IMG/VR virus record: IMGVR_UViG_3300030102_006934
Span: 316,344-380,343 of that record
DNA: 64,000 nucleotides
Direction: 5' to 3' (one strand)
Source of the DNA: a virus
The position numbers and the translations under genes are program-made. Under the pieces are notes generated by a model, which was not told the DNA's origin, did no database searches, and saw only the letters and a program-made list of their open reading frames with translations. Positions 5,810 to 57,157 of the stretch are shown here, in pieces (the first letter of the stretch is position 1; each line of letters opens with the position of its first letter).

Positions 5810-5820
5810 TAAAAGGTCGT

Positions 5821-12390: not shown

Positions 12391-13839
12391 ATGAACATAA
12401 AAAGGGTTATACGAGAAGAGTTGAGTGACTTTGACTGGGTTGAAGAGATACCCAGTGTATTACCCAAAGATAGTGATTGGTGGATAATCAATGATGTTGA
12501 TCCCTATAGTTTAGAGGTAAGTGAAGAAATACAAGATTTTGTATTTAAACAAGGTTTTACTTGGATGTCGGGTCGGAAAAATTTCGTACCCAACAAGGTC
12601 GTAGCAATCTCACATCGAGGTGGAACATATGATCAACAATTAGGTAGATTTGGTTTTTACCGTCCATCTGACCATTCACCAAGTGACATAGAAAGATATG
12701 AAACAGGGAAAGATGACCTAGTTTATCGATGGAGTGAAATCGTTAAACCAATTAAAGAATCGGATGATATGGATTGGATTAGAGATATAAAACCAACAGA
12801 CCCAATCGGTGATTTCCTCATGAAAAAATTTCATGAGAAAATGGTTACTTATTTATCGTTGGGTGGTAGAAAAGGTGATGTTATTTCTAGGGAATGGGCT
12901 ACCGTTGAAGCTTTTTTAATTGAATTAAGGGAATTAAAAGAGAATGGCTTTGTTAATTTTTTAAGTAGGGTATTATTACAAAGTCATGTCGATAGACCTT
13001 ACCCACATGTCTTAAAGGCTATAGAAGACTCAGGTTTTGACGTTAATAAGTCAGAAGAAACCAAAAGACTTTATAAAATATTTCAGTCTTATAACTCTTT
13101 GGGTAATAGAATAAAAAGGACTTTAAAAAAAACTTTCATAAGAGAGAATGACCTAGATTGGATTGCTGGTGTTAGTAAAGACTATTGGGATTATTATGAT
13201 GCTGTGGTTTTCAAAAAAACATTGTTTGATGCTGAATTTAAGAAGTTTATTAACCAAGCCCTAAAATCCGTACAACCAACCAACGCTTCAGATTGGGAAG
13301 AAGATGATGAGATGAGTGATTTAGAGTACTTAAATTATAGGATTAGAAGACATGGCCAAGCTTTTATCGGAAAATACAGAGATGAAAAAGGTCGGAATGT
13401 TTTAGTTTTTGGTCAGGACCCAGATTATGAACTATACCCCCAAGTAAAGGATGCTAAAACTATAAATTACGAAGATATAAAAAAGGGGTTGTTCGAATCC
13501 AACGACTTTAGTTGGATCCAAGATATAGAACCACCGGTATTTAAACAACTAGATATTGCCACAAAAGATGATAATGATATAAACGTAAAGTGGGGTGATA
13601 ATGGGGATTTTAGTGAGGTGATAGATTCTAGTGGTCATAGGTATTTTAATCAAAGGGAATTAGGTTTATTTTTAGGTCTTTCTTATAGAAATTGGTCTGA
13701 AACTATTAATAATCTAGGGAAGTCAAATCTACTATTATATATAAAACACTTGATTGATTCTATAGAGTGGAGTTTACCAAGAGAACAGGAAGATTATGAT
13801 GATTTTATTAAATTATATAAAATAGTGGAAAAGTTATGA
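12391..13839 (+). CDS. Tagged multi-module protein (four modules)
   Basis: 482 residues. N-terminal tag KRVIREELSDFDWVEE, then internal junctions KPIKESDDMDWIRD, FIRENDLDWIAG and LFESNDFSWIQD, each [IL]-x-E followed by S or N and an F/M/L-D/S-W. Module 1 (about 27-115, with IINDVDPYSLEVS and ending VYRWSEIVKP) is shared with the products of 47845 and 54572. Other modules unrecognised. It would yield four pieces if cut at every junction. Starts 2 bases after the previous stop. Confidence 0.65.
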   Translation: MNIKRVIREELSDFDWVEEIPSVLPKDSDWWIINDVDPYSLEVSEEIQDFVFKQGFTWMSGRKNFVPNKVVAISHRGGTYDQQLGRFGFYRPSDHSPSDIERYETGKDDLVYRWSEIVKPIKESDDMDWIRDIKPTDPIGDFLMKKFHEKMVTYLSLGGRKGDVISREWATVEAFLIELRELKENGFVNFLSRVLLQSHVDRPYPHVLKAIEDSGFDVNKSEETKRLYKIFQSYNSLGNRIKRTLKKTFIRENDLDWIAGVSKDYWDYYDAVVFKKTLFDAEFKKFINQALKSVQPTNASDWEEDDEMSDLEYLNYRIRRHGQAFIGKYRDEKGRNVLVFGQDPDYELYPQVKDAKTINYEDIKKGLFESNDFSWIQDIEPPVFKQLDIATKDDNDINVKWGDNGDFSEVIDSSGHRYFNQRELGLFLGLSYRNWSETINNLGKSNLLLYIKHLIDSIEWSLPREQEDYDDFIKLYKIVEKL

Positions 13840-14382: not shown

Positions 14383-15408
14383 ATGAACATCAAAAGAATT
14401 ATAAAAGAGGAGATGGATGACTTTGATTGGGTTAGAAATATAGAGGTTGATACTGATTTAACCCCTGCTCAACTTTACAATAGAATTAATGATTTACCAA
14501 ATGGTATAGTTGGCCCTTATGTCGGTGAAAACTTCGCTGATATTAAGTATGAGAATGGTAGGTACTATTTAATGGTTGATGATTTTTGTGATTTTAAAGA
14601 ATGGTTTAGTGATAGAGAAAACGGTTCTCAAGGTTATTATATGAATCAATGGGCTTTTACACAAGCTTTTTGTGGAGAAGATGATTTTTTTGAACCTTAT
14701 GGTGATTTGGTTTATGATTGGATTGACCAAGTATGGGAACTTGTTGCGGGGGATGAAAAATTATATAATTATGTAGTTGATTACATTACTGAAAACTTAG
14801 TTGGGGATGAGATGAGATTAGATAATGAGGAAAAAATATTAACTTTAGAAGATGTTCTTACTTGGTCAGCTGATTCAGATGTTTTAGGAATGGTTATAAA
14901 TGAACTAGATGTTTTTGAGGATTTAAAATGGGAATTAGAGAGATCTTACGAAAATGCTTATAATACATTTGTTGTTGATAATATGTATAAAGCAGGTAGG
15001 GATGCTATCACAGATGTTGTGGGTGATGGTGAAAGAAAAGATGTAGAACTTTATAATTCATACAGTAAATCCAATTACAACGCTAATAAATTAGTTTTTG
15101 ACGTGACGAGTATGTTGTCAGATTATCTTTATGAGGCTATTGAGTATTGTATAGATAATAGATGTAAACCTTATTGGAAACCAGAGAATTATGATTTTGA
15201 ATCGGAGGGTGAGACGGAAGAAGAAGCTTTTGAAGATTTTTGTCATGAGTGTATGAATTACCCCTTTGATGACCATGGGTCTTTCCTTTCTTTTATGAAA
15301 GAAATATTAGAAGAAAATGGGGACTTATTAAATCCTAGAGTCGATGATTACCCTAGTAACGATGAGATAGAAGATTATTTTATAGAAGACGTACATGGAA
15401 GATTCTAA
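14383..15408 (+). CDS. Tagged acidic protein, 341 aa (duplicated with next gene)
   Basis: Tag MNIKRIIKEEMDDFDWVRN, then a long acidic domain with LTPAQLYNRI, VYDWIDQVWELV, ADSDVLG and DLKWELE. The whole domain recurs as the second half of the next protein, so the pair is a tandem duplication. No known fold recognised. Very acidic overall, which suits a protein that must lie beside DNA-free surfaces or mimic DNA; that is speculation. Confidence 0.6.
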   Translation: MNIKRIIKEEMDDFDWVRNIEVDTDLTPAQLYNRINDLPNGIVGPYVGENFADIKYENGRYYLMVDDFCDFKEWFSDRENGSQGYYMNQWAFTQAFCGEDDFFEPYGDLVYDWIDQVWELVAGDEKLYNYVVDYITENLVGDEMRLDNEEKILTLEDVLTWSADSDVLGMVINELDVFEDLKWELERSYENAYNTFVVDNMYKAGRDAITDVVGDGERKDVELYNSYSKSNYNANKLVFDVTSMLSDYLYEAIEYCIDNRCKPYWKPENYDFESEGETEEEAFEDFCHECMNYPFDDHGSFLSFMKEILEENGDLLNPRVDDYPSNDEIEDYFIEDVHGRF

Positions 15409-16759
15409 AAAAACAAATTTAAAATTAATTATACGAGAAGAGTTGGATGACTTTGATTGGGTCAGAGACGTGAATACCAATCAAGATATCGCATTAGACA
15501 TTGTTAATAAAACTAAATTTTTTGTGTTAGACGGTAGTTTAAGGGTAGACCTACCTTTTATGAGTTATTATGAAGGTTATCCAGTGAAACAGTTATTTAA
15601 CTCCTCGTCATTACTTAAAAGTAATAGCCCTACTATTATGTTCCTTAATTACGTTAGCCAAAATCATGGGTTTGAAAGAACCGACTTCATGGCCAAATAT
15701 AACATAAACGCAAATGTACGTGATATATGGTTTAGGTATAAAAATTTAATGACACAAAAAGTTTTAGACAACCTTAAAGATAAACCAATTAACGAATCAG
15801 ATGACTTTGGTTGGGTTAGGGATATAAAGATTGATTATGATTTAACTCCTGCTCAGTTTTACCATAGGTATGAAGGTAATTTACCACTAAAATTTGTAGG
15901 ACCACTAATAGATAATGGATTTATTGATATAGACTATGATGGAGATGAACTTTATTTAAAATTGGAAGACGGTTGGTGTGATTTAAAATCACTTTTTACG
16001 GAACATGATACCAGTTCTTCTCAAGGAGCATACATTAACAAAAGTTTAGTTAATAATTTATATTGTGATGAGGATTACTTTGAACCATTCGATGGGATAG
16101 TTTATGATTGGGAAGATCAAGTTTGGGGCCTTATAACTCAAGATGATGAACTATATAAATACATAATAGACCATATAAACGAAAATATTGTGGGTTACCA
16201 AATGGATTTTGAGGGTGAACAAAGAACTCTAACTAAGGAAGATATTCTTGAATGGTCTGCCGACTCCGATGGGTTGGGTGAAGTCATCAATGACTTGAAT
16301 GTTTTTGAGGATTTAAAATGGGAATTAGAACTTTCTTATGAAAATGCTTATAACAATGTAATTAGAGATAATATTTACGAATCCGTTAGAAAAAGTGTTG
16401 AGGATTATCTTGGTCCGGCTGATTGGTATGGTAATGTTTTAACTTTTAAAGTAACTGAACCTCTTTTAGAACTTATAGGTAATGAAATTGGTGATTGTTG
16501 GGAAAACTGTAAACGACTTTGGGATCCAAAAGAATATGAAGATACTTATATGATGTTCAATAAAACCGAAGAAGAAGCTTTTGAGGAATACTGTGGTTCT
16601 TGTTTTGACCACCCATTTGATTCATATGGTTACTTTTTGGATTTCTTTAGTGAGTACTTATCTGAAGAAGGGGAATTACTAAACCCAAGGCTTGATGAAT
16701 TCGCGTCAGATGCTGAAATGTTACCATATTTTAAAGACGAGGTCTATTCTAGATTTTAA
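15395..16759 (+). CDS. Tagged two-module protein, 454 aa
   Basis: N-terminal tag LKLIIREELDDFDWVRDV, a short first module of about 115 residues, the junction KPINESDDFGWVRDI, and then a module homologous to the whole body of the upstream protein (LTPAQFYHRY, VYDWEDQVWGLI, ADSDGLG, DLKWELE). It overlaps the upstream gene by 14 bases. The junction therefore separates an added module from a duplicated one, good evidence that it is a true domain boundary. Confidence 0.65.
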   Translation: MEDSKKTNLKLIIREELDDFDWVRDVNTNQDIALDIVNKTKFFVLDGSLRVDLPFMSYYEGYPVKQLFNSSSLLKSNSPTIMFLNYVSQNHGFERTDFMAKYNINANVRDIWFRYKNLMTQKVLDNLKDKPINESDDFGWVRDIKIDYDLTPAQFYHRYEGNLPLKFVGPLIDNGFIDIDYDGDELYLKLEDGWCDLKSLFTEHDTSSSQGAYINKSLVNNLYCDEDYFEPFDGIVYDWEDQVWGLITQDDELYKYIIDHINENIVGYQMDFEGEQRTLTKEDILEWSADSDGLGEVINDLNVFEDLKWELELSYENAYNNVIRDNIYESVRKSVEDYLGPADWYGNVLTFKVTEPLLELIGNEIGDCWENCKRLWDPKEYEDTYMMFNKTEEEAFEEYCGSCFDHPFDSYGYFLDFFSEYLSEEGELLNPRLDEFASDAEMLPYFKDEVYSRF

Positions 16760-27568: not shown

Positions 27569-27651
27569 TTGGAATGGTCTTCTTTCTATTCGTTTTTATT
27601 TTTTTGGTTACCTGTTCTATCATCGATGATAATATTAATAAGAAAAAATGA
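27565..27651 (+). CDS. Tiny membrane or lipoprotein-like peptide, 28 aa
   Basis: MIGMVFFLFVFIFLVTCSII then seven more residues. One hydrophobic helix ending L-V-T-C, which resembles a lipobox. It overlaps both the previous stop and the next start by 4 bases (ATGA junctions), so it is in the translation chain of the tagged operon although it has no tag. Function unknown. Confidence 0.5.
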   Translation: MIGMVFFLFVFIFLVTCSIIDDNINKKK

Positions 27652-29111
27652 AATTAAACTTATCTAAAATACTAAATTCTACATTAATCCTTGAGGGTAG
27701 GTGGGAGGATGTAATTAAAAAGTATAATCCCCAAGGTAGTGATATAGAAGTAATAGATTATCTATCAAGAGAAGATCCTTCTGGAAATAACAAATATTTA
27801 GACTGGATGACTAAAATTTGGATGGGTCACACCAAAGAACTACCCACAGATGAGGAAATATTGAATTTGGTAAAAAACTTTCATCAGAACTTAAGTAGAA
27901 TTAAAAACAAAGATATAAATAGTTATACCTCCTTTAAAGAATTAGGGGTGGTTGTTGATGAGGCTGTGAGAAAAGCCTACACCAAGAAAGCTAAAAAGAA
28001 TGTTATAAAAGTTTTCGAAAATGATGATATTTTAGTCTTAGCCCCTTTGAGTATTGAAGCTTCTTGTAAGTATGGTGCTGGTACTAAGTGGTGTATTGCG
28101 GCAACAAATAATCAAATGGTGGGTAACCCACATTTTGAAAGTTACACCAAACACTCTAGTTTTTATTTTTTGATAAATAAAAAAATGACAAAGGAAGAAA
28201 ACCCAAGAGAATATAAATACGCTTTACAGTGGAAACGAAGCGGTGATGAATTTACATGGTGGGATGCTCAAGATGATTCTCACAGTGTGGCTCCGAATTG
28301 GGTTACTGATGAAGTATTGGAAGCTATAAAACAAAATGGGGAAAAAGTTAATAGGGGTTTACTTAAGACAAAAATTAAAGACTTTTTAAACGCACCTAAT
28401 ATAGATGAGTATATTAAAATGAAAGATGTTCTTAATGAAAAAGAAAAAACCCAAGTCATAGACACCCTCATAAAACAAGGTTTTAGTATTGATTACTTTC
28501 CGATATTTAAAGAAGATATAACAGAATCACAAATGAAAACTTTAATAGCTAAGTTTGTTAAAGTATATACTAAAAGTGAAAGGTTTAAGTTTAAAGATTT
28601 TAACTTGATAAAGGGTTATTTAAGTAAAGAACAACTTTTTAATATTTTAGAATCTCATGTGAGTTTATTGGAAAATGATGAGGTTGTTAATTGGATGGAT
28701 ACTAATTTTTCCCATAAATATAAACACAACTTAGTTAATAAGATAGATGGAATAAATAAAATTTCTAACAATTTAAATAATAAACTTATTTTAAAAAAAT
28801 GGTCTATGACAGAAGAGGAGTTGGAAGAACAATTAGCGATATCTTATTATGCCTTTTTATCTTCTGGTGATTGGGATACTGGTCAAAGAGAAAATTTTAT
28901 AGATTCTTTAGTTAAAATAGATAGGCTGGACCCAAGTTCACATAAGACCTTAAATATGATGAAAATGAGAAAACAATTTCAACCAGCAACTAAATTGTAC
29001 ATGATTAAAACCAGTGAGGGATTACTAGACGATTATGTGGGTATGTCTGACGAAGAAATAGATGACCCCATATTAGACTCTATAAAACAAAGAGCGATAG
29101 AAATTAGGTAA
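27648..29111 (+). CDS. Tagged protein with G-x-W-C domain (paralogue 2)
   Basis: 487 residues, homologous to the minus-strand protein at 8759-10189. N-terminus NLSKILNSTLILEGRWEDV gives I-L-E followed by G. EASCKYGAGTKWCIAATNNQ is the conserved Trp-Cys centre, followed by HFESYTKHSSFYFLINKK and WWDAQDD. The C-terminal half is helical and less conserved. Two scattered copies plus the 52774 protein show this domain has been duplicated for use with the tag. Enzymatic role likely but unknown. Confidence 0.6.
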   Translation: MKLNLSKILNSTLILEGRWEDVIKKYNPQGSDIEVIDYLSREDPSGNNKYLDWMTKIWMGHTKELPTDEEILNLVKNFHQNLSRIKNKDINSYTSFKELGVVVDEAVRKAYTKKAKKNVIKVFENDDILVLAPLSIEASCKYGAGTKWCIAATNNQMVGNPHFESYTKHSSFYFLINKKMTKEENPREYKYALQWKRSGDEFTWWDAQDDSHSVAPNWVTDEVLEAIKQNGEKVNRGLLKTKIKDFLNAPNIDEYIKMKDVLNEKEKTQVIDTLIKQGFSIDYFPIFKEDITESQMKTLIAKFVKVYTKSERFKFKDFNLIKGYLSKEQLFNILESHVSLLENDEVVNWMDTNFSHKYKHNLVNKIDGINKISNNLNNKLILKKWSMTEEELEEQLAISYYAFLSSGDWDTGQRENFIDSLVKIDRLDPSSHKTLNMMKMRKQFQPATKLYMIKTSEGLLDDYVGMSDEEIDDPILDSIKQRAIEIR

Positions 29112-30446: not shown

Positions 30447-30782
30447 ATGAAACATTTAATTAGAAAAATACTAAATGAAGGTGATTTTGATTGGGTAGAA
30501 GATTCAAAAAGTCCTAATATACCCTTAAAAGACATATCTGACTGGGTATATGAAACTAGATATAAAATTGCTCCAGTCATGCAAAGTATAGATGAATTCA
30601 AAAAACAAAACTTTATCAAAGGTGGGTCTAATAATTCGAATACCACTAATTCAGAAGTACTAGAAGACGTTTTATATTCTATCACACAAATAGGTACTGA
30701 AATAAGTAATATATATGATAGTCTTGAACAAATAGACGAAGAACTTCACTCATTAAGTTTTGTAATTGAAGATGATGAATAA
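30447..30782 (+). CDS. Tagged protein, 111 aa
   Basis: Tag MKHLIRKILNEGDFDWVEDS, then a helical acidic domain (LEDVLYSITQIGTEISNIYD). Family not recognised. Its stop overlaps the next start. Confidence 0.62.
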   Translation: MKHLIRKILNEGDFDWVEDSKSPNIPLKDISDWVYETRYKIAPVMQSIDEFKKQNFIKGGSNNSNTTNSEVLEDVLYSITQIGTEISNIYDSLEQIDEELHSLSFVIEDDE

Positions 30783-32554: not shown

Positions 32555-33219
32555 TGACAAACAATCAAATATTTTTCAATATAGATACACAACAAGACTT
32601 TTTTGATAGGGAGTGTGTAGATATACCAAATGGGGAATCTGTTTTAGAAAATTTAAAATCAATTAGTAATTATTTAAGGGATAACCAAATTAAAACTATC
32701 CATACAATAAGATGGTTCATAGAGGATTCGGAATTCTTTTCTGAGATGCCAGATTATAAAACTAAATTCCCTAAACATTGTATTAAAGATACAAAAGGAT
32801 CTAGATTTATAAGTCAGACAGCACCTATAGGTTATTTTTTGATAAATTGGGAGGGTGGTGACTTAGTATTCCCAGAAATACACAGAAACACAAACATTGT
32901 GGTAACTAAAAAAAATACTGATTTATTTGGTGGTAACTCTTTTTCCGAAGCTTTAATAAATAATCTAGGAATTCCAATGATGCAAAGACCATCTTTTTAT
33001 CTGTACGGTGTTTCAGTTGGTTCCACAGCATTGTCACTATTAAGAAGAGGTTATTCAGTGACGGTCATTAGTGATGCCAATATAAACTTAGATGGACAAG
33101 TATTTAAAAAAGAGGATATAATAAATAGTACTATAAACCCAGAAACTGGTAAACAAGTAAATGAGGTGTTACCATTAAATTTTATAACAACAAAAGAGTT
33201 AATAGATGGAAATAAATAG
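32554..33219 (+). CDS. Isochorismatase/nicotinamidase-like protein lacking the catalytic Cys
   Basis: 221 residues. FFNIDTQQDFF (D11), VVTKKNTDLFGG (Lys) and YGVSVGSTALSLLRRGYSVT are the three parts of the cysteine hydrolase triad, and VISDAN follows. The usual GV-x-T-x-x-C-V segment has no Cys: S or T occupies the site. By family it would hydrolyse nicotinamide or isochorismate, but here it may be inactive or changed in chemistry. Confidence 0.7.
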   Translation: MTNNQIFFNIDTQQDFFDRECVDIPNGESVLENLKSISNYLRDNQIKTIHTIRWFIEDSEFFSEMPDYKTKFPKHCIKDTKGSRFISQTAPIGYFLINWEGGDLVFPEIHRNTNIVVTKKNTDLFGGNSFSEALINNLGIPMMQRPSFYLYGVSVGSTALSLLRRGYSVTVISDANINLDGQVFKKEDIINSTINPETGKQVNEVLPLNFITTKELIDGNK

Positions 33220-33829
33220 TGAATCAATAGAGAGATGGGGTTCGATAGGTTTGTTAGAGGGACTACCTATATGGGAGAAAAATGAGTTAGCCTTAATTTT
33301 AGATAACGCCACAAAAATATTGTTAGACCAAATTAAGAGAAAATCTTTAAGCGATGAATTTTTAGACATTTATGATAATGTGTACATCCCTATTTGTAGA
33401 AGATTATATAGAAGGGTTGGCCCTAGGTTTGACATTATTAAGATGATGGATAGATTGATGGATGATACGATACTTAATTTTGACTTACTTAAAGGGAAAG
33501 TTGAAAACAAAAAAAAGGAAAAACTAAGTCAAAAAGACCCAATAGTAGAGTTCTGTGTTAATTTTTCCGATTCTTACGAGGATGAAGAAACTCTTAAAAG
33601 TTTTTTATCAGAAGAAGATTATGAAAAAAAGGTAGATCTAATTTTAGAAAGAATGCGGTCTGTGTTATTAAATAATAGGAATGTTTTAAGTTTTAAGAAT
33701 ACTGGTACCGATTGGGATATAAAATTATCGGAAGAGAAAAGGTCAGTTAGTCATGTTAGGTTTTGGAATCAAAAAATGTCTAACTCTTTTCTACTACAAT
33801 CTCTATCAGATATAAACAAAGGTATATAA
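33206..33829 (+). CDS. Hypothetical protein, 207 aa
   Basis: Family not recognised. Helical, with IPICRRLYRRVGPRFDIIKM and a long charged middle. It overlaps the isochorismatase-like gene by 14 bases and the epimerase gene by one base, so it is part of the same translated chain. Confidence 0.6.
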   Translation: MEINSESIERWGSIGLLEGLPIWEKNELALILDNATKILLDQIKRKSLSDEFLDIYDNVYIPICRRLYRRVGPRFDIIKMMDRLMDDTILNFDLLKGKVENKKKEKLSQKDPIVEFCVNFSDSYEDEETLKSFLSEEDYEKKVDLILERMRSVLLNNRNVLSFKNTGTDWDIKLSEEKRSVSHVRFWNQKMSNSFLLQSLSDINKGI

Positions 33830-34609: not shown

Positions 34610-34681
34610 GCGGATGTAGTTTAATGGTAAAACGTTTAACATCCAGTTAGAAGTTAGGAGTTCGATTCTCACTCATCCGCT
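34610..34681 (+). tRNA. tRNA-Gly-like (TCC), second copy, A at position 33
   Basis: Acceptor GCGGATG/CATCCGC perfect, same anticodon arm TTTAA-CATCCAG-TTAGA, discriminator T. The acceptor and T arm differ from the first copy by paired changes, so both are under structural constraint while sharing A33. CCA is not encoded. Confidence 0.75.
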
Positions 34682-34710
34682 CAATTTAAAAAAAGATTAA
34701 CTCAATTAAA

Positions 34711-42890: not shown

Positions 42891-45800
42891 GTGATGTCAA
42901 TTAAAAAAATTTTAAAAGAGTATAATAATTTCGATTGGATTAATGATATAAATCCTATTTCCCCACATATAGAAAATATTGTGGGTAAAAAACTACGTCA
43001 TCGAGACAATAACTTAGCACATATACCCAACCACAACGATTTAAGTAAAATAAAAGACGGTGGTGTTCTTTTATTAAAACCCAAGATGGATTATTATTTT
43101 GTTGTGGACCGTATAGACCGTATAACAAATGAGGTTATTATTAAAATATTCCCTAAAAGAAAATCTCGCTACAAACAAGAAGAAGTAAGATATTCAATTA
43201 GTGATATGGAGAATTTAATTCGGTTGGGTATATGGGTTCTTGATGATAGTATAGAAGAATCTGATAATACCATAGTAGAAGAAGAGGAAATAGGGCTAGA
43301 CAATGATGAAAATATATCACAAGAAGAAATAGATTATATTAATAAAGAGTATGGTTCTTTAAGGGATAGGGAAAATATAAAAAACACATTGAAGAACCCA
43401 CCTTTTAACTTCAATCCGTCCCAAATAAGAAATGGAAGTATCAACACTTATGTTGTGAGATATATAGTTTCTAAAGAAGGAAATAAAGGTAATAAAGATG
43501 TTTTTGTAAAAGAAAAATTTGAAAATTTTTTGGATAAAGTAAATAGTGTATTGGGCACTAATTACAAAAACTCTAGTGGATATAGGGAATTGACATCATC
43601 AGCAAAACCCAAAAAACAAGGGGCTTTGACTCAACGACAAATATTGGTACACAACTTTAATATGAGTAAGGAAGCAATTGAAAGTTGGTTACAAGTAAAA
43701 CAAAATAACCAAAGAGTTGTTGGACAAAAGAACCTAAGACAGCCAAAAACACAGGAAGAGATAGATACTAACCTTACTAAACTCATAGATTATTTAGCTA
43801 AAACTAAACTTAGTGAAATTATTTTATCATTAGATGGTTTACTAGAAAAGTTTGGGTTAAGTCGTGATGATAAAAGTAAAAATGACGCAATCCCCAAAAA
43901 AGATGAGATTGTTAAACAATTAATTGATGAATTTGAACAGAACTTAAGGGTGAAGTTTTATTTAAATTACATTGGTGGTAATGTTGTAGATCAAAGGTCT
44001 AACTGGGCAACATTTGTGAGGTATTCTAAAGCAATTAAAAAAATTATAGAAAACAGTGAACTACCAAAAGACCTCGGAATAGACTTTAAAAATAGTAAGA
44101 ACTATAAAAGGTTAAAGGATTTATTTGAAAAAATAAAAGAAAAAGAATACTGTTACATTTTTAGTGAAAACTGTGAATTATCCAGTTCTGATATAGAAAA
44201 AGTTATGGACTTTTTCGGTAAAAAATATGAAAATAGTTTTTTAACTAAAGGATTTAAAAAAGATACTAATAGGGGTCTTGAGTCTAGGATTCATAATTTA
44301 GATATGGTGGGGTATAACTTTTCTGAAAAAATAAAATCAAAAGATTTTAATGCGGACGAAATTTATAATTATATAACTAAAAACATTAAAAATTATTTAG
44401 ATAATACAGAAACTATTGTTAAGTATGATTTATTGGCTAAAGGGGAAAGAAAAGACAATAAGGGTAATATTATAATACCCAACGAAGGTAAAGTTGAGGT
44501 AAAGGATATAAACTATTTAGATAGTTACTTATCAGAATTTTTAGCATCTCCAGTCAAAAGAGCGGAATATGGGGTGAAAGATGACCCTAAATATTTAAAA
44601 AGGTATAATGAAGTGGTTGATAGGGTTTATACCTATTTAACAGAAAATTATAAAGAAATCATTATTAGTAAAATTCAAGAAGGTTTAGAAGGTATAATAA
44701 TATCTAATAATATCTATGTCCCTAATAAAAAAAATAACATTAAATTTTATTTATCCGATATTGGTCGAAGTAACCCCAAAAAACAAAGAAGAATTACTGT
44801 TAGATACGAGATTAATGAAAGTAACTGGGAAAATTTTTATATAATAGATGATAATGGTGTGTTACAACCACTAGATGAAGACACCAAAAAAGTGTTAAGA
44901 TATAAAGGTGAAAAAATTTCTGAATCTAACGACATTGATTGGATAAAAGATGCTTATAAAACAGAATGGACTTTTGATGATATCGCACAATTATATTATG
45001 CTGGTGACGTTGAAGCTGTTAAAATTGTTAGGTTTAAAGATTTAAAACACTTAAGGGGAGCTATTGAGTGGTGTCTTGGTGAGGATGCGGAGTTAGATTT
45101 TTTCAATGAATTCAAGGTCGGTAATATACGCCAGATACTTTCTACCAATTTAGACATTGACGGCCAAATATCACACAATAATTTTACAGTGAGTGATTTA
45201 GATTGTGGTTGGTGTCTAGATGACCCAGATTCCATTGGTTATAATTGTAATGAAAGACCTAAAACCATGTCTCTACGGGTTGATGGTCAAATATTCGAAG
45301 ACTCTTTTGCCTTCAGTGAGGATTGGGTTGAGTTAGAACCTATTATGAAATCAGATGAAATAAATGAATCTTCTGAGGGGTTAGAATGGATTAGGGATGT
45401 GGTACCTGACGACAGTGTAAGATTTGATAAAGATAAATTATATTACTTTAACCCACCACTAAACCATGATGAGATAATAAATTTAATGAATAGAATACCC
45501 AATGAAAGTAAGTATACACAAACCAAAAAATGGTTTGATAGGGTTTTTGGGGGTAGAGCACCACAGAGGTATATGACTTATTTTAATGTAGATGGTGGTG
45601 ATCGAAATGATGGTAAATTTTATGTTAGTGGTTGGTGTAGTGAAACTCGTTGGTCTCAGGTTAATGATGAGTATTATCCACACTCTGAACCAGTAAATGG
45701 TAGGGATGAATTTTTTGGACACTATAAAATTTCAGAAGAAAAGGTAAGTGAATCTAAAGACGATTTTGATTGGGCGAGGGACGTTAATCCAAATCCTTTT

Positions 45801-47627
45801 CACGGTACAAACATTAAATTCTATATAAACGCTACACCAACTCAAGAACAAGCTGAAAAGATTTGGGATTTATTAATTGATGCGGGTGTAACTGATTCGG
45901 CTAAAGTTAAAGAATACAACAGGGTGTATAAGTTGATGAGGGGTAGAGGTACATTTATGATGATTGACCACGATGGTGACTTTATGTATAATATTGATAA
46001 CTTATCTGAGTACGTTAGAAATGGAAGAATTAGTTCTGGTAATATTATTAATTTTACAGACATTTTTTCAGATGATGAACCTGATGATTATATAAAAGAA
46101 TCTAAAGATTTTGAATGGTTAGATGATGTACCACTAACTCTTAACCATATTTTTAATGAGTTAAGTATTGGTGATGAGTTAACCCTAAAGGGCAATACTT
46201 ATGGTGCTCATCTAAATATGCAACATTTTAAATACACAGAACCTTTTACAATTACGATACAATCAATCGGACCTAGATTAGAAGATTCTGATTTTAAAAT
46301 ATCAGTTAGAGAAAAGGAAGCTATAGTTAACTTAGGTATAAAACATAAGGGTGAACTACTTAAAAAGTACCCAAAATTTCATGTGTTTTCAAATAATTCG
46401 TTTTTTCCAGAGGATGGCGATTTAGAAGTTGTTTCTTGGGTTAAATCTGAAGATAAATTAGAAGAGTCCTCACAAGATTGGGATTGGGCCGAAACTCCAG
46501 AAGTAATCATAGGGGGTAAAAACGGTTTACCAAAAGAAAGTGTTCCTTTAGGTACTAAAGTGGTGAATTATGATGGTGACATATTCACCATAGAGGATAT
46601 TACTGGAGGGTATATGGATTTCCAACATGTATGGGGTAGTGACCAAAAGACAGCTTGGTTGGGTCCTAAAGATGATGAGGATAATAAAAATTGGCATAAT
46701 ACCTTATGGTTAAGAAAAGCAACTTCTGAAGATTTAAATGAATCTGAAAATGAGTGGGACTGGGCAAAGAATATAGTTACTGATGGTTTAGATCTTAAGT
46801 TTAGTGAAGGGATGTGTTTACTTAGGAAAGACGGTACTCGATGGTTGGTAGTGGATACACCGAAACACGCTTCAAAATCCACAACATTAGTTTGGCTTCA
46901 ACGAACTCACACAAATGGGATAGATATAACTGAAAAAAAGAGGCCAATCTCACCCTTTAGAGAATCAACTCTTTCTAGGCAAATACAAAGTGGTGATATA
47001 ACAATCTGTAATAAACCTTTAAAGGAATCCGATGACTTTGATTGGGTTGATGATATTGATGCTGTAGACCCTAAAAAACCTAAGCCTGGTTATGTTTATA
47101 ATTGGAGTGGTTATAGTGATATAATTGATGATGATGAGGTGCTAACCGATACCATAATTATTACAAAAATAAAGGGTGATGACGAATGGGTTAGTGGGGG
47201 TTTTGAAATTATGTTTGTTCCAGAAGGTACTTCTCCCAATTCCGAAGATGCGGTTCATAAACAAGTTTTTGATAAATTAGTTGATAAGGGTGAAATTCAA
47301 TTTCTTCACAAATTAGATACTGATATGGTTAATGAATCTAAAGATGATTTTGATTGGGTTAGAGATACAATACCTGTTGAACTAGAAGACCCTCAATCTT
47401 GGGTCGGTAGGTCCTTTGGTTATGGTCCTGAAATAGTAGATAACATGGATGGAGCGGAACTAGCAATGGGTGATGATAAGGAATATTATACTATAGATAG
47501 TATTGATGGAAATGGTAATTTAGCTTTAACGAGGCACCACCCCAATAGAAGAAGCATGAGTGATAGTAGTACTTCAGTTATTTCTTTAAGAGATTATATT
47601 AGTAATGGTAGATGGGTATGGGTTTAA
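42891..47627 (+). CDS. Tagged polyprotein-like protein, 1578 aa
   Basis: Starts GTG 42891 or ATG 42894: SIKKILKEYNNFDWINDI. Nine internal junctions of the form [ILV]-x-E-S lie near residues 123, 678, 826, 954, 1070, 1192, 1284, 1379 and 1482; eight are followed by D/E-x-[FWL]-[DE]-W or close variants, for example LKESDDFDWVDD and INESSEGLEWIRD. The last eight modules are about 90-150 residues. Several end in an h-x-x-G-x-[IW] pattern such as LIRLGIWVL and RDYISNGRW. Residues 135-660 match the 54572 protein (LEGIIISNNIYVPNK). Inference: a head polyprotein cut by the prohead protease. Confidence 0.7.
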   Translation: MMSIKKILKEYNNFDWINDINPISPHIENIVGKKLRHRDNNLAHIPNHNDLSKIKDGGVLLLKPKMDYYFVVDRIDRITNEVIIKIFPKRKSRYKQEEVRYSISDMENLIRLGIWVLDDSIEESDNTIVEEEEIGLDNDENISQEEIDYINKEYGSLRDRENIKNTLKNPPFNFNPSQIRNGSINTYVVRYIVSKEGNKGNKDVFVKEKFENFLDKVNSVLGTNYKNSSGYRELTSSAKPKKQGALTQRQILVHNFNMSKEAIESWLQVKQNNQRVVGQKNLRQPKTQEEIDTNLTKLIDYLAKTKLSEIILSLDGLLEKFGLSRDDKSKNDAIPKKDEIVKQLIDEFEQNLRVKFYLNYIGGNVVDQRSNWATFVRYSKAIKKIIENSELPKDLGIDFKNSKNYKRLKDLFEKIKEKEYCYIFSENCELSSSDIEKVMDFFGKKYENSFLTKGFKKDTNRGLESRIHNLDMVGYNFSEKIKSKDFNADEIYNYITKNIKNYLDNTETIVKYDLLAKGERKDNKGNIIIPNEGKVEVKDINYLDSYLSEFLASPVKRAEYGVKDDPKYLKRYNEVVDRVYTYLTENYKEIIISKIQEGLEGIIISNNIYVPNKKNNIKFYLSDIGRSNPKKQRRITVRYEINESNWENFYIIDDNGVLQPLDEDTKKVLRYKGEKISESNDIDWIKDAYKTEWTFDDIAQLYYAGDVEAVKIVRFKDLKHLRGAIEWCLGEDAELDFFNEFKVGNIRQILSTNLDIDGQISHNNFTVSDLDCGWCLDDPDSIGYNCNERPKTMSLRVDGQIFEDSFAFSEDWVELEPIMKSDEINESSEGLEWIRDVVPDDSVRFDKDKLYYFNPPLNHDEIINLMNRIPNESKYTQTKKWFDRVFGGRAPQRYMTYFNVDGGDRNDGKFYVSGWCSETRWSQVNDEYYPHSEPVNGRDEFFGHYKISEEKVSESKDDFDWARDVNPNPFHGTNIKFYINATPTQEQAEKIWDLLIDAGVTDSAKVKEYNRVYKLMRGRGTFMMIDHDGDFMYNIDNLSEYVRNGRISSGNIINFTDIFSDDEPDDYIKESKDFEWLDDVPLTLNHIFNELSIGDELTLKGNTYGAHLNMQHFKYTEPFTITIQSIGPRLEDSDFKISVREKEAIVNLGIKHKGELLKKYPKFHVFSNNSFFPEDGDLEVVSWVKSEDKLEESSQDWDWAETPEVIIGGKNGLPKESVPLGTKVVNYDGDIFTIEDITGGYMDFQHVWGSDQKTAWLGPKDDEDNKNWHNTLWLRKATSEDLNESENEWDWAKNIVTDGLDLKFSEGMCLLRKDGTRWLVVDTPKHASKSTTLVWLQRTHTNGIDITEKKRPISPFRESTLSRQIQSGDITICNKPLKESDDFDWVDDIDAVDPKKPKPGYVYNWSGYSDIIDDDEVLTDTIIITKIKGDDEWVSGGFEIMFVPEGTSPNSEDAVHKQVFDKLVDKGEIQFLHKLDTDMVNESKDDFDWVRDTIPVELEDPQSWVGRSFGYGPEIVDNMDGAELAMGDDKEYYTIDSIDGNGNLALTRHHPNRRSMSDSSTSVISLRDYISNGRWVWV

Positions 47628-47844: not shown

Positions 47845-48888
47845 ATGGATTCAGAAAAAAAAGAAGGTAAAGTTTCAAACGATTTTGATTGGGTAAAAGA
47901 TGTTAAAGCAAGACTACCTTTAAGAGTTGGTACTTGTTTAACTTTTAAACACTCAAAAGAGGAAGAAGAATGGGTAGAAGATGAATACGGTAACATGATT
48001 GACCACGGTAAAATGAACTGGCATATCACAAGTAAGTTTATAGATGTGTATAATGACGATAAACCAACCTTTTCAATGGTAGCCACAGATAGAATGGGTG
48101 AAAGTCGTCAAATTTTTATGGAAGTGGAAAAGGTTAAAGAATTGTATGAGGAAGGTGTTTATGAGCCTTGTAAAAAACAGCCATACCTAAAAAGAGTAAT
48201 GAAAGAAGAATCCGATGATTTTGATTGGGTTGAGGATGTTTCCAACACTTTACCCAGAAATGATAATTGGATGTTAATTAACGATGTAGACCCTGATTCT
48301 TTGGAAGTGTCTAAAGATATACAAAATTACCTATTCAGTAAGGGTTTGTTTTGGAATACAGGTAGAAAAACCCCATTGTATCAACGTATATTAGCGATAC
48401 ACTATGTCTTACCACACCGAATACATAGTGGTAGCTTTACCTACGTACCTAATAGTATACCTCATGAAAAAGCAAGATTAGAAGTTGAGTATGATAGGGA
48501 AGAACTTCTCAAAAAAGGAAAACATGTTTACTATTGGAGTCAATTAAAACCAGAAAAAGATAATATCAAAGAATCAAAAGATTTAAAATGGATCGAAGAT
48601 ATTGATTTTACAGACCCTAAAAAACCCAAACGTGGTTATGTTTATGATTGGAAGGGTTATAGTGATAGTGTTGCTAATTTAGGATATCAGTTAGGTGAAA
48701 TTGGGGATATTATAATTATTAAAGAACCATTTAGCAACCCAAGTCATAGGTACCCCAAGTGGAAGATGCATTACTTCGATACTTTAAATTTTGATTGGGG
48801 TGAAGAATTAGATGGTATTTCTGAAATTGAATTCAATAGAAAAATAGATGACGGTACCATAACCTACCTATACAAGTTAGGTCAATAA
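47845..48888 (+). CDS. Multi-module tagged-family protein, 347 aa
   Basis: Starts MDSEKKEGKVSNDFDWVKDV: the D-F-D-W part of the tag without the helix. Junctions RVMKEESDDFDWVEDV (about residue 117) and DNIKESKDLKWIEDI (about 247) split it into three modules. Module 2 (MLINDVDPDSLEVS, ending YYWSQLKP) is shared with the 12391 and 54572 proteins. Module 3 (DPKKPKRGYVYDWKGYSD) is shared with the 42891 protein. It may be a continuation of the polyprotein. Confidence 0.65.
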   Translation: MDSEKKEGKVSNDFDWVKDVKARLPLRVGTCLTFKHSKEEEEWVEDEYGNMIDHGKMNWHITSKFIDVYNDDKPTFSMVATDRMGESRQIFMEVEKVKELYEEGVYEPCKKQPYLKRVMKEESDDFDWVEDVSNTLPRNDNWMLINDVDPDSLEVSKDIQNYLFSKGLFWNTGRKTPLYQRILAIHYVLPHRIHSGSFTYVPNSIPHEKARLEVEYDREELLKKGKHVYYWSQLKPEKDNIKESKDLKWIEDIDFTDPKKPKRGYVYDWKGYSDSVANLGYQLGEIGDIIIIKEPFSNPSHRYPKWKMHYFDTLNFDWGEELDGISEIEFNRKIDDGTITYLYKLGQ

Positions 48889-50384: not shown

Positions 50385-50619
50385 TTTAGTCATACTGTTA
50401 AGTAGTTGTAGTGTTGTTGAATATTATAGTGTAGATGGTGAATCTACTTTCGTTGGAATTACGAAAAGTGAAAACCATTTTCATGAACATTTTGTAGATA
50501 GTACAAATAACTCACACCATTGTTTTTATTATCACGACACAACAACATATAGGTGGAAAATAGTGGTTGATAATATAGTGAAAAGAAAAAAATTAGTTAG
50601 ATATAAATTAAAAAAATGA
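50368..50619 (+). CDS. Small lipoprotein, 83 aa
   Basis: GTG start at 50368. MRGILSLVILLSSCSVVEYY is a lipoprotein signal with lipobox L-S-S-C14. The mature part is His-rich (ENHFHEHFVDSTNNSHHCFY), which may bind metal. Overlaps the metallopeptidase start by 4 bases, so the two envelope-directed proteins are coupled. Confidence 0.65.
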   Translation: MRGILSLVILLSSCSVVEYYSVDGESTFVGITKSENHFHEHFVDSTNNSHHCFYYHDTTTYRWKIVVDNIVKRKKLVRYKLKK

Positions 50620-51842
50620 GGGTATTTAAATTTGTAATAATTTTATTAGTGAGTTTAACAAGTTATTCACAAAATTTTTGTAAAACTGACGAACACAATA
50701 GGTTATTTTTTGAAAAAAATATAAACCACTATAAAGGGGTTGAGGAAAAAATAAAAAAATATATTAAGAATAATCAAAATAAAGATGGTGACGAAGATAT
50801 AATAACCATACCAGTGGTCTTTCATATAATATGGCAAGAAGATAAACAAAATTTAGATGAAGAAGTTGTAATAGACCAGTTACTATTATTAAATGAGTGT
50901 TTTAACGCTGAAAATTCAGACACATCTATTTTGACTGACACTTTAAAAGACTGGGTTGGTAACTTCGGTATTCGTTTTGAGTTGGCTCACGAAGACCCTA
51001 ATGGTTTTATGACTAATGGTATAACTAGAACTAAAACAATTAATCCACATTTCTCATCATATAATAATCTAGTTAAAAAATCAAACTATGGTAAAGAACC
51101 GTGGCCGACTGATAGGTATTTAAATATATGGGTTTGTAACTTATTAGATGACTTATATGGTTACGCTCAATTTCCAGGTGGACCAATTGAAACTGATGGT
51201 GTTGTGGTCGATTGGCAAACTGTAGGTAATGGTATATACCCTTGGACTTACCCTAGTTTGGAAAATTTAGCTTGTGGTAAAGTCTTGGTACATGAAATTG
51301 GCCATTGGTTAAATTTATATCACCCATGGGGGAACGAACCTTTTGGTTGTGGTGACGACTACATACCAGAAACTGGCTTACAAGATGGACCTATTTATTC
51401 AAGTGACCAATGTTTTGATACTTTGATTAGTACATGTAATTCTATAGATAGAGTTTTTGTTAAAACTTATATGGACTATTCAGGTTGTGACTGTATGGTA
51501 ACATTTACTACAAACCAAGTTGTACGGGGTTTGGCCTCACTACATACCTATAGAGAAAGTATGATAAATAATTACAAACCAAAACCTAATATTAATTATC
51601 TAGAAGAAACAAGGATAAACCCAACCCTAACTAAGGGTTTATTCTACATACATCTACCAAATTATAGTGGAATAATTGAAGTATTTATTTTTGATATTGG
51701 TGGTAAATTGATAGAATATAGGTCTTTACACGGAAAAACAATTAATATTTTCGATATTAGTAATAATGGTAATGGTATGTATTTTATAAAATTAACCCAT
51801 AACAATTTTATATCAACAAAAAAAATATTAAAATATGACTAA
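50616..51842 (+). CDS. Secreted M43-type metallopeptidase with type IX sorting domain
   Basis: 408 residues. Signal peptide about 1-19 (VIILLVSLTSYSQ). ITIPVVFHIIW is the typical start of M43 (pappalysin/ulilysin) domains. VHEIGHWLNLYHPWG gives H226, E227, H230, H236, with Asn where most members have Gly. MDYSG (286-290) is the Met-turn. The C-terminal 75 residues (GLFYIHLPNYSGIIEVFIFD, then GMYFIKL and TKKILKYD) are a Por secretion/type A sorting domain. By family it is exported through the host type IX secretion system, so it would act outside the cell or at its surface. Confidence 0.88.
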   Translation: MRVFKFVIILLVSLTSYSQNFCKTDEHNRLFFEKNINHYKGVEEKIKKYIKNNQNKDGDEDIITIPVVFHIIWQEDKQNLDEEVVIDQLLLLNECFNAENSDTSILTDTLKDWVGNFGIRFELAHEDPNGFMTNGITRTKTINPHFSSYNNLVKKSNYGKEPWPTDRYLNIWVCNLLDDLYGYAQFPGGPIETDGVVVDWQTVGNGIYPWTYPSLENLACGKVLVHEIGHWLNLYHPWGNEPFGCGDDYIPETGLQDGPIYSSDQCFDTLISTCNSIDRVFVKTYMDYSGCDCMVTFTTNQVVRGLASLHTYRESMINNYKPKPNINYLEETRINPTLTKGLFYIHLPNYSGIIEVFIFDIGGKLIEYRSLHGKTINIFDISNNGNGMYFIKLTHNNFISTKKILKYD

Positions 51843-52773: not shown

Positions 52774-54060
52774 ATGAACTTAAAAACCATCATTAAGTCA
52801 GAACTATTATTTGAATCTTTGGAAGATAGGTTAAAATCTGCCTATCGAAAATGGTGTAAAAAAATGAAATTAAAAGACCAAGACACCCTTGATGATATTA
52901 AGAATGCTGATGGTTATGTAGAAGAACTTGATGTATATGCAGAAGAATTTGAGGACCCTCACAGTAAAATGTACCAAAAAGTTGAAGAACTATACGCCAA
53001 GGAAGATTATGAAGGTATACATAATTTGATAGCTGACCACCAATGTAGGGATTTGTATATTGGTGCAGTATTTAAAGATTGGCTTTCTTATAGGAACCTA
53101 ACAAAAAGTTCAGATATATTCCAATATAAAAGTGAGAGAGAACTTGCGGGGGAGTTAGAGGACGCAAAAGAGAAATCATTTACCAAAAAGTTAAAGAAAG
53201 CTTCAGAGGGTGAAGATTTTGATAAAATTTGGGAGAATGATGATATGTTGATTGTTGTCCCTAAGTCACACGTTGGAGCTTGTAAATTTGGTCAGGGTAC
53301 TAAATGGTGTACCGCTAGTAAAACTGGTAATTACTTTGATCCTTATTATAAAAAAGGTATCTTATATAGGGTACTACAAAAAAATGATAATTATAAAGAA
53401 TTGTTCTCTAATTTTCAGATGAATAATAAGTTAGTCTCTGACATTGAAAACCTAAGTAAAGTCTCCATAAATCTAAGAAGAAAACAAGACTCTATGTCTA
53501 TGGTGGATAAAGTAGATTATGCTTTTGGAAATAAATCAACTTTAGAGTTTTTAAACTCCTTACCTAGTGAAGGTTATAAAGCCATTAAAAATTACCATAG
53601 TTTAAACGAACAAAGTATAAAAAATATTATAAGAGAAGAGTTGGATGACTTTGATTGGGTTAAAAATACTAACCCAATTCCAAATGAAATTTTAGACATA
53701 AGTAAGTACCGAGATGGGAATTATAAATTTTGGTTGGGAGATATATCAAAAGAAACTCAACTACAAATATTGGATTATATAAGTGAGGTGATTAGGGGTG
53801 ACGATAATTTACATACCAATGGTACATTGTATGAAGTTCGTAAAAGGGTGGATAAAAATTTAGTCTCTATTAATTCACTTTTTTTTGAGATTAAACAGGT
53901 TGGCTTAAAAAAAGGAATAAATTTATCAATAATGGGTTGGTACCCAAATGACCCACATTTTGAAAGAGAAGAAAGATTAGAATATTGTAGAAATTATTTT
54001 TATCAAACGGATGATATAAATTTGTCTGATGTAGATTTGGGGGAACAAAATAAAATTTGA
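52774..54060 (+). CDS. Tagged protein with G-x-W-C domain and an internal full tag
   Basis: 428 residues. N-terminus NLKTIIKSELLFES has site L-F-E followed by S. HVGACKFGQGTKWCTASKTG (about 168-187) is the Trp-Cys domain shared with the 8759 and 27648 proteins. At about residue 280, SIKNIIREELDDFDWVKNTN is a complete N-terminal tag, basic helix included, inside the protein. The last module (about 140 residues) therefore looks like a once-separate tagged gene fused in frame. Confidence 0.65.
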   Translation: MNLKTIIKSELLFESLEDRLKSAYRKWCKKMKLKDQDTLDDIKNADGYVEELDVYAEEFEDPHSKMYQKVEELYAKEDYEGIHNLIADHQCRDLYIGAVFKDWLSYRNLTKSSDIFQYKSERELAGELEDAKEKSFTKKLKKASEGEDFDKIWENDDMLIVVPKSHVGACKFGQGTKWCTASKTGNYFDPYYKKGILYRVLQKNDNYKELFSNFQMNNKLVSDIENLSKVSINLRRKQDSMSMVDKVDYAFGNKSTLEFLNSLPSEGYKAIKNYHSLNEQSIKNIIREELDDFDWVKNTNPIPNEILDISKYRDGNYKFWLGDISKETQLQILDYISEVIRGDDNLHTNGTLYEVRKRVDKNLVSINSLFFEIKQVGLKKGINLSIMGWYPNDPHFEREERLEYCRNYFYQTDDINLSDVDLGEQNKI

Positions 54061-54571: not shown

Positions 54572-57157
54572 ATGAGAGTTTTAATAAATAAAATATTAAA
54601 AGAGTTACATAGTAAAAGTATTATTAAAAAAGTACTTAATGAAAATTACCAGGACGAAAATATATCACAAGAAGAAAAAAATAGTATCATTGATGAGTAT
54701 GGGTGGTTAAAAAATGAAGAAAAAATTGAAAGTATTTTAAAAAACCCGCCTTTTTCAAAGAAAACTAGGACCTATAGAATAGTTAATAGCTATAGGGTTA
54801 GGTATATTATATCTAAGGAAATAAAAAAAAATGTATATTTTAATAACGCGGGTTGGGCTAACTTTGTAAAGAAGGTGGGTCAAGTAATAGGCTTAAAAAT
54901 AAAAGCAACAGATGATACCGTTTCAAAATTCTTTAAAAATATCGATGAGACCAAAAAATATGGTTTAGAGGGGAAACATTTAGAAGATAGAAAAAATACT
55001 TCCACGGAGTTAAAAAAGAATTGGAATAAAATAGACCCTGAAGTATACGAAGAAAGAATAGAACATACTATTAATTATTTAAAAAATACCAATATTACAG
55101 AATTGGAAAATTCAAAGACAAGCTTATTGACACGGTTTTCTTTAATACTAAGATACCAAGAAGAAATAATGAACTATCTTATTGATTATTTTAAAGATGA
55201 CCCAAAAATAAGGTTTTATCTTAGTTATCTTAATAAAGGTGGAAAATATTGGGGTACACTTGTAAAATACCAAAAAAAACTAAGTAATGTGCTAGACAAC
55301 CCTAATATTAGTGAAAAATATGATGACATTGTAGAAATGAAAAAATCATATAAGGCTATTATTGAAGAAGAAGCACCTTATTTGTTTAACGAAAAGGGTA
55401 ATTTTACTAAAAAAGAAAAGGAAATATTAGTAAATTGGTTTAATTTAACAAGTTATGAACATTCTTTCACAGAATTAGGGTTTTATAAACCAGAAGGAAA
55501 AGGTGCGGAGTCTTTAATACATAATCTACACAGTGCAGGTATTAGATACAATGTTAGTAATGAAATAAAAAATAATACTGATACTGATGACGTTGTAAAA
55601 TTTGTGATAAACAATATTATTAATTATTTAAAAAACACAAAAGATATAATTAAATACGATATTGTTAGTAAAGATACTATAAAAGATATTAATGGAAATG
55701 AAGTGATTCCAAAGGGTAGTAAAATAGAGGTTAAAGACATTAAGAATAGTGATAGTTATTTTGCTGAATTTTTATCATCACCTGTTAAAAGCGGTTCAGA
55801 AATATTGAATAATGAAGTTTATAGAGGAAGGTATAATAAAATAATAGAAGGAATTTATAATTGGTTATCTAACGATAGTGTGGGTATGGGTATTAAAAAT
55901 ACTATTAAGTGGTTAATGACTAACGATTTAGAAGGTATAATAATATCTAATAATATCTATGTCCCTAATAAAGATGGTAACATTGAATTTTATTTATCTA
56001 ATATTGGTCAAAACAACCCAAAAAATCATATAAGAATTACAATAAGATATAATATTAATTTAGATAAATCGAAAAATTTCTATAAAATAGGAGATGGTAA
56101 GTGGAAATTAAACGGTAAAGCATCCAAAAAAGGTATTCTTTACCCACTACCAGAAACAGAAAGTAATTTAATAAGACCCATAGAGAAACAAATTTATAAA
56201 ACAATAGAAGAATCTAAGACTAAATCTACAATAAATAAAATATTAAAAGAAGAATTCGATGATTTCGATTGGATTAAGGACACTTTTACCGAACTAAACA
56301 AAAGTGAAAAATGGATGTTGGTTAATGATATAGACCGTGAGAGTATATCGGAAGGTCATGAAATACAAAAATATCTATTTGACTTGGGTTATAGTTGGGG
56401 TACTGGTGATTTAAAAAATTCACTAAAAGATTTTTGTATCTATACAATATATCATTTCGGAAATATTAGAAATGATGAACACTTATATTACGGAGATGGT
56501 TGTAGAAGTGCTGATATAAGAATTTCAGATAAAGATATTAAAAGTGGTGAACATATAGTTTATTATTGGAGTGAGTTAAAACCTAAAACAATAAAGGAAG
56601 AAAACGATTTTAAATGGATTGATGAACCAAGAAACAACCCATTAGATGGTTTAAGATTAACAACACCTATGGGTAGAGCTGGTAGTGGTGGTAGTGGTTT
56701 AACAATAAAAGACGATGGTGGTACATATGTTACTGTTACCTCTTCTAACGGTTCTAGTGAATATCATAGGGGTACTGTTAAAAACTTTATAAGAATGGGT
56801 ATTTGGTTACCAATAGATTCTATGAATGAATCAGATGATTTTGATTGGGCGAAAGAAATAAAACCAACGTTGAATGTTGCCTTTGAAGAAGGTCTGATTA
56901 AAGCGGGTGATATTTTGACACTTTCTGGGGAACTAATGGATGATGAAGGAAGACACACAATACAAGTTTCAGATTTTAAAATAAAAATAGATCAAATATA
57001 TGGGCCTAATAGTGTATATAGAGACATCACCAGTTCTCTTTTCATACCACTACAAGAAAAATATTTCAAACACTTAGGTTATTATGAAAATGAATTTAAT
57101 GATTCTATCAGATTTGCTAAGAAAGATGGTGAGTTAGAAATATTAGATATATCTTAA
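54572..57157 (+). CDS. Tagged polyprotein-like protein, 861 aa
   Basis: The N-terminus has two tags in a row (MRVLINKILKEL and SIIKKVLNENYQ). Residues about 25-540 match residues 135-660 of the 42891 protein (ENISQEE, LKNPPF, SEFLSSPVK, LEGIIISNNIYVPNK), with some identical DNA. A complete internal tag, INKILKEEFDDFDWIKDT, lies near residue 560. Then come a MLVNDIDRESISE module, the junction KTIKEENDFKWIDEP, a Gly-rich module, and SMNESDDFDWAKEI before the last. Like the large gene, it reads as a protease-processed polyprotein. Confidence 0.68.
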   Translation: MRVLINKILKELHSKSIIKKVLNENYQDENISQEEKNSIIDEYGWLKNEEKIESILKNPPFSKKTRTYRIVNSYRVRYIISKEIKKNVYFNNAGWANFVKKVGQVIGLKIKATDDTVSKFFKNIDETKKYGLEGKHLEDRKNTSTELKKNWNKIDPEVYEERIEHTINYLKNTNITELENSKTSLLTRFSLILRYQEEIMNYLIDYFKDDPKIRFYLSYLNKGGKYWGTLVKYQKKLSNVLDNPNISEKYDDIVEMKKSYKAIIEEEAPYLFNEKGNFTKKEKEILVNWFNLTSYEHSFTELGFYKPEGKGAESLIHNLHSAGIRYNVSNEIKNNTDTDDVVKFVINNIINYLKNTKDIIKYDIVSKDTIKDINGNEVIPKGSKIEVKDIKNSDSYFAEFLSSPVKSGSEILNNEVYRGRYNKIIEGIYNWLSNDSVGMGIKNTIKWLMTNDLEGIIISNNIYVPNKDGNIEFYLSNIGQNNPKNHIRITIRYNINLDKSKNFYKIGDGKWKLNGKASKKGILYPLPETESNLIRPIEKQIYKTIEESKTKSTINKILKEEFDDFDWIKDTFTELNKSEKWMLVNDIDRESISEGHEIQKYLFDLGYSWGTGDLKNSLKDFCIYTIYHFGNIRNDEHLYYGDGCRSADIRISDKDIKSGEHIVYYWSELKPKTIKEENDFKWIDEPRNNPLDGLRLTTPMGRAGSGGSGLTIKDDGGTYVTVTSSNGSSEYHRGTVKNFIRMGIWLPIDSMNESDDFDWAKEIKPTLNVAFEEGLIKAGDILTLSGELMDDEGRHTIQVSDFKIKIDQIYGPNSVYRDITSSLFIPLQEKYFKHLGYYENEFNDSIRFAKKDGELEILDIS

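Follow-up and report, generated by a model that had tools for sequence, protein, structure and literature searches.

The 1578-residue protein encoded at 42891-47627 (+) reads as a chain of about ten head-cargo proteins, and we put the probability of this reading at roughly 0.7. One basic N-terminal leader, acting like the capsid-targeting sequence (CTS) of T4, would take the whole chain into the prohead core. A gp21-type protease of the S77 family would cleave after Glu at every [ILV]-x-E|S junction and release the domains within the closed shell, leaving an acidic S-x-D-F-D-W tail at the N-terminus of each. Once free, the proteins would be packaged and probably ejected along with the DNA.

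Positions refer to the window, the whole 64-kb stretch of DNA analysed here, unless they are marked G000, our label for the complete 380,343-bp IMG/VR virus record of which the window is the final part. The phage is a T4-like jumbo phage with a 380-kb genome. The ORF is uninterrupted across its 1578 codons and opens with GTG at 42891; the next codon, ATG at 42894, is probably the true start, since it fits the leader start M-S-I-K-K of sister genes. The genomic neighbourhood of the ORF is accessory and includes thymidine kinase and further metabolic genes, and the capsid gene cluster is ~200 kb distant. Thus, the association of the ORF with the head rests on the leader and on the module genes that adjoin the capsid gene in relatives. 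Elsewhere in the window, 50616-51842 encodes a phage-borne M43-type metallopeptidase with a Por_Secre_tail (type IX secretion) domain, a tail that suggests a Bacteroidota host. Eight tRNA genes lie at 1642-5273 and 34610-34682.

The chain divides into these parts:
42894-42920 (+): basic leader at the N-terminus, MSIKKILKE (residues 2-10), closing with a cleavage-like L-K-E and then YNNFDW.
42921-43259 (+): module 1, residues 11-123; a predicted small beta domain (AlphaFold) with homologues in related phages.
43260-44924 (+): module 2, residues 124-678; a large domain with paralogues at 54572-57157 (blast E 5e-74) and G000 124223-125344.
44925-45368 (+): module 3, residues 679-826; starts ISE|SNDIDW; no relative found.
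45369-45752 (+): module 4, residues 827-954; starts INE|SSEGLEW; weak homology to standalone small ORFs of the related contig L117 (E 3e-4).
45753-46100 (+): module 5, residues 955-1070; starts VSE|SKDDFDW; delimited from sequence.
46101-46466 (+): module 6, residues 1071-1192; starts IKE|SKDFEW; homologous to a module of contig L123 (E 7e-10), the homology starting <=5 aa from the junction in both.
46467-46742 (+): module 7, residues 1193-1284; starts LEE|SSQDWDW; ~70% identity to the leader-borne first module of a polyprotein of the related phage G038.
46743-47027 (+): module 8, residues 1285-1379; starts LNE|SENEWDW; delimited from sequence.
47028-47336 (+): module 9, residues 1380-1482; starts LKE|SDDFDW; its paralogue is the last module of 47845-48888 (E 1e-10).
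47337-47624 (+): module 10, residues 1483-1578; starts VNE|SKDDFDW; homologues in G001 (standalone) and G038 (last module).

These modules show no sequence relation to one another. Modules 1 and 10 end alike, but profile comparison matches little beyond the FDW start and we do not claim common ancestry for them.

The full motif, an [ILV]-x-E-S that runs into an acidic [FILW]-[DE]-W, occurs eight times in the protein (sites at residues 676, 824, 952, 1068, 1190, 1282, 1377, and 1480). When the protein was shuffled 20,000 times, the copies averaged 0.008 and never exceeded 2; the full motif in reverse gave 0 copies. The bare [ILV]xES was observed 10 times vs. 1.87 in the shuffles. The original prediction had named nine [ILV]-x-E-S junctions, eight of them running into an acidic W stretch, and this is what we found. 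The exception is IEES at residue 121, which has no acidic [FILW][DE]W after it; the AlphaFold model still puts a domain boundary there. The tenth site, INES at residues 641-644, was omitted from that prediction and is probably no junction: it lies within a confidently folded AlphaFold domain and is replaced in homologues. The last eight modules measure 92-148 residues, close to the 90-150 foreseen, and the h-x-x-G-x-[IW] endings expected in several modules were present in modules 1, 5, 8, 9, and 10. What had been missed is that the N-terminus of the polyprotein itself bears the motif behind its basic leader (SIKKILKE-YNNFDW), and that the motif is found in many other phage genes. We also considered the junction DNA as a mere recombination linker; its codons and residues vary in a conservative way (FDW, LEW, WDW), suggesting that selection acts on the protein.

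At the structural level, AlphaFold of residues 2-690 (12 sequences; model numbering is protein numbering minus one) gave a pLDDT of ~33 for model residues 1-22, covering the leader and FDW, and mostly 70-92 over residues ~24-120 of module 1. Model residues 120-141 (protein 121-142) were at ~30, the C-terminal core of module 2 was confident, and model residues 672-689 (protein 673-690) were at ~40. The low values at both junctions indicate predicted flexible linkers between confident domains. The structure-prediction check proposed earlier, that no domain should span a junction, thus held for the two junctions of the well-modelled part. For modules 3-10 it was uninformative (residues 670-1578, four sequences, mean pLDDT 38), so their compactness rests on homology boundaries where relatives exist. 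Foldseek gave nothing convincing for modules 1-2 (best E about 0.01, probability 0.09); its weak fold matches are suggestive of an SH3-like module 1 and, without significance, of a module 2 like the restriction nuclease MvaI. A KxD...(V/I)E(V/I)K pattern in module 2 weakly suggests a PD-(D/E)xK nuclease.

Whole-protein searches against Pfam, PHROGs, PDB sequences, INPHARED phages, and viral_contigs gave no match for the 1578-residue protein. The exact KESDDFDW pattern had 0 matches in viral_contigs; a looser motif pattern retrieved 28 stretches there, and on reading, about 21 of these stood in the context of a leader or junction. In 85,000 prokaryote genomes, the motif pattern gave 73 matches, none in clear leader context.

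The leader is not confined to this chain: M-x(1-3)-[LI]-[KR]-[KR]-[IV]-[IL]-[KR]-E opens ~30 other G000 proteins. An FDW-type triplet follows it in ~15 and is absent in about as many, and several of the leader genes without FDW adjoin the protease and capsid genes. The chain is one among several polyproteins in its genome, which encodes at least five other multi-junction ones. Examples of leader-borne and multi-junction proteins are:
12391-13839 (+), G000 328734-330182: 482-aa leader-borne polyprotein with junctions at 123, 252, and 369.
14383-15408 (+): 341-aa leader-borne protein with the same domain as residues 134-454 of 15395-16759 (45% identity, junction to junction).
15395-16759 (+): 454-aa leader-borne two-module protein with an internal junction, INE|SDDFGW, at residue 134.
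30447-30782 (+): single-domain leader gene, MKHLIRKILNE|GDFDW.
47845-48888 (+): 347-aa three-module protein downstream of the ORF, with MKE|ESDDFDW and IKE|SKDLKW and without basic leader.
52774-54060 (+): 428-aa protein with a full leader-type junction internally (IIRE|ELDDFDW); its last module is also a standalone gene, G000 100503-100946, with 47% identity from exactly the junction.
54572-57157 (+), G000 370915-373500: 861-aa leader-borne polyprotein with the module-2 paralogue and three further modules.
G000 109811-113575: 1254-aa multi-junction protein with ten internal sites by a wider pattern; it has an FDW start and no basic leader.
G000 113578-114792: leader protein with a C-terminal phage lysozyme domain (PF00959, E 3.5e-20).
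G000 116643-119348 and G000 313561-315915: further multi-junction proteins.

Leader genes also stand in tandem, at G000 328534-333102 and in L117. In the latter, 2165-5956 holds five tandem or near-tandem paralogous small genes, each starting MNIKKIIKEEIDNFDW; this set is likely an intermediate between single cargo genes and polyproteins. A lysozyme domain closes leader-borne chains in three phages (G000 113578-114792, L123 2381-4927, and L173 16011-17276) and may be a packaged cell-wall enzyme. Besides, a domain family of GTKWC(T/V)(A/S)S type was seen at 8759-10189 (-), 27648-29111, 52774-54060, G000 125380-126924, and G000 157685-158452. Its paralogues are scattered over the genome, and several open with a LILEGR-type sequence.

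Among relatives, the modules are shuffled, and the junctions are where the shuffling occurs. We compared 100 motif proteins of this genome and its relatives all against all and obtained 120 internal starts of non-colinear homologies. Sixty-seven of the 120 fell <=5 residues from a predicted cut vs. 7 for random points, and 78 fell <=10 residues from one vs. 17, a sharpness that is partly due to the common motif itself. The homologies run on through the module and generally end near the next junction. The module-1 domain comes first in one two-module protein of related phages and second in another, and is also found in 3-module proteins. Module 10 is a standalone leader gene immediately after the capsid gene in G001. 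At the same place, G038 encodes a 419-aa four-module polyprotein with the module 7 homologue first, the module 10 homologue (56%) last, and two different modules between them. G002 also has a module gene immediately after the capsid gene, and proteins with >=3 sites were found in G031, G033, G035, G038, G040, G043, and G048. Thus, the parts of the chain behave as several independent domains bounded by sites of protease type: homology starts at the junctions, and the same domains stand alone elsewhere.

The residues around the cut differ between the start of a chain and its interior. Over the 11 residues before the Glu, net charge averages +3.1 at N-terminal sites (n = 67) vs. -0.2 at internal ones (n = 99). 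Basic charge only at N-terminal sites means that most internal junctions keep the protease rule and FDW but lack the targeting helix, as would be expected were the whole chain loaded by one leader. At internal junctions, where Glu at P1 is fixed by the pattern definition, P3 is I/L/V in 90 of 99 and P1' is Ser in 63 of 99. After the leader, the residue following the presumed cut is Glu in 46 of 70, which does not fit well with a simple cargo-cleavage model. Neither does the single-leader model explain the multi-module proteins that start with FDW and have no leader (G000 109811-113575 and 47845-48888). FDW is mostly limited to closer relatives, and in farther ones, at about 60-69% capsid identity, the leader comes without FDW. 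Hence, FDW is not required for leader function.

A protease of the appropriate type is encoded in the same genome. G000 151747-152478 is a T4 gp21-family (S77) prohead protease (Pfam PF03420, E 4.5e-29; PHROG head maturation protease, E 1e-41; T4 gp21, PDB 5jbl, E 1.8e-19), and a T4-type portal and a gp23-type capsid protein are encoded near it. Ten of the 18 motif-bearing contigs, many of them short fragments, carry S77 proteases. In the capsid protein, all 72 of 72 relatives keep the Glu of L-[IL]-[NST]-E|[AST], and MAFFT aligns this site with SFLTE|A of T4 gp23, the cleavage point of the T4 capsid protein. We infer that the aligned site is the maturation site here. The capsid relatives share a second invariant motif, L-[YF]-E-N, and FLEG near capsid residue 36 was rejected as the maturation site because its Glu is not conserved. 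The junction rule ([ILV] at P3, Glu at P1, mostly Ser at P1') fits the same S77 protease as the putative capsid maturation site. The prohead proteases of T4, phiKZ, and SPN3US cleave after Glu (PMC5694885), and that of SPN3US favours Ser at P1' (PMC10052503). In the window, a 207-aa protein at 33206-33829 has an N-terminus (ERWGSIGLLEGLPIWEKNELALILDNATKIL...YIPICRRLYRR) like the first ~80 residues of the capsid protein (KWNDLGFLEGLNGHTRENIALLYENTASSL...VVFPIVRRVF). It is possibly a partial capsid paralogue, and a PHROG search with it gave no match.

The original prediction of a bead-string precursor is therefore well supported by the gp21-type protease of the same genome, the single-domain leader genes, the shuffling at junctions, and the AlphaFold linkers. 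From these we infer the cleavage itself. One amendment is that residues 124-678 form one large module.

Other readings account for part of these observations. The protein could stay uncut and be packaged or injected whole, like a polyvalent protein, with the ES-FDW stretches as flexible linkers inherited from fused leader genes. Polyvalent proteins with 2-15 domains occur commonly among phages, and transfer without processing is known for some (PMC5512222); fusion of neighbouring leader genes is plausible given the tandem ones. Against an uncut protein, the internal junctions retain the hydrophobic P3, the Glu at P1, and the Ser at P1' yet lose the rest of the leader. Neutral linkers would not preserve a protease rule in this way. 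Nor did we find a self-processing peptidase domain in the chain, the one weak match (M91-like) being in another polyprotein. We consider this reading improbable. It is more doubtful still that a host protease or another phage protease cuts the chain outside the head and frees the modules as cytoplasmic effectors. Glu at P1 does not single out a protease by itself, and the ORF is in an accessory region rather than the head cluster; against this, the same leader is on head-gene neighbours, relatives have module genes directly after the capsid gene, and the putative capsid maturation site is of the same specificity.

What functions could instead be FDW, as a peptide by which each module docks to the scaffold or shell for loading, and Glu-Ser would be only a common spacer. 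FDW sits in a predicted flexible tail and is retained at N-terminal and internal sites as well as in leaderless proteins. We find this very hard to favour, since I-x-E is equally constant as FDW and the head cluster includes leader proteins without FDW. The large size of the protein would suit a repetitive protein of a tail, fibre, or surface in which the motif arose by accident. Against this, the modules are mutually unrelated, there are no fibre family matches, and the motif is far over chance, so we give this idea almost no credence.

The proposed head-cargo chain may belong to something more general. We suggest tentatively, and at somewhat less than even odds, that interchangeable bead-string chains are a general cargo system of an uncultured jumbo-phage lineage. 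One leader would load up to ten unrelated proteins in equimolar amounts, the protease would free them, and the FDW tail would act as a second address (e.g., to dock with shell or portal for ejection), with recombination at junctions swapping the cargo. If true, ten cargo domains under one leader would account for the loading of many small proteins in a fixed ratio by a giant phage. The motif would then be a readable tag for capsid cargo in genomes of unknown function, with about 100 motif proteins gathered here, and the cargo sets of uncultured jumbo phages would become predictable and testable. Such a chain is also a natural scaffold on which protein loading into phage heads could be programmed.

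To our knowledge, polyproteins are rare in tailed phages, and the prohead proteases known so far remove propeptides from single proteins. In the literature searched, which lay mostly outside subscription papers, we found no description of a cargo polyprotein cut by a prohead protease. Mosaic injected proteins are already known (PMC5512222), as are CTS-bearing internal proteins and prohead proteases. The T4 proteins IPI, IPII, IPIII, and Alt are non-essential packaged cargo with a ~10-residue N-terminal targeting peptide (CTS) that is cut after Glu by the S77 protease gp21 in the prohead (PMC5694885, PMC9958956). The chain and its ~30 genome-mates resemble them in the short N-terminal peptide ending I/L-x-E, a likeness of kind and not of sequence homology to the CTS, and this phage encodes a homologous S77 protease and capsid protein. 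T4 takes a single short peptide off each protein; in this phage, as many as ten unrelated domains follow one leader, with sites between them and an acidic FDW tag after each site.

phiKZ and SPN3US, with an S80 protease and inner-body ejection proteins, are likewise giant phages with many head proteins cleaved after Glu. However, the cleavages found there all yield N-terminal propeptides (plus autocleavage), not several mature products per chain. Polyvalent proteins, such as P1 DarA/DdrB and the N4 virion RNAP, are mosaic multidomain proteins thought to be delivered with the DNA (Iyer et al. 2017, PMC5512222). The chain shares with them the mosaic multidomain build and the domain shuffling, and lysozyme is among the domains. 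Their processing is ascribed to an in-chain zincin-like peptidase (PMC5512222), whereas here there are repeated sites of prohead-protease type; a metallopeptidase domain, a likely but not universal polyvalent theme, had no Pfam match in our ORF. Finally, the polyproteins of animal and plant viruses also hold several proteins per chain with sites under one protease rule, but they are not homologous to this one, in which only cargo is concatenated and not the core replication or structural set.
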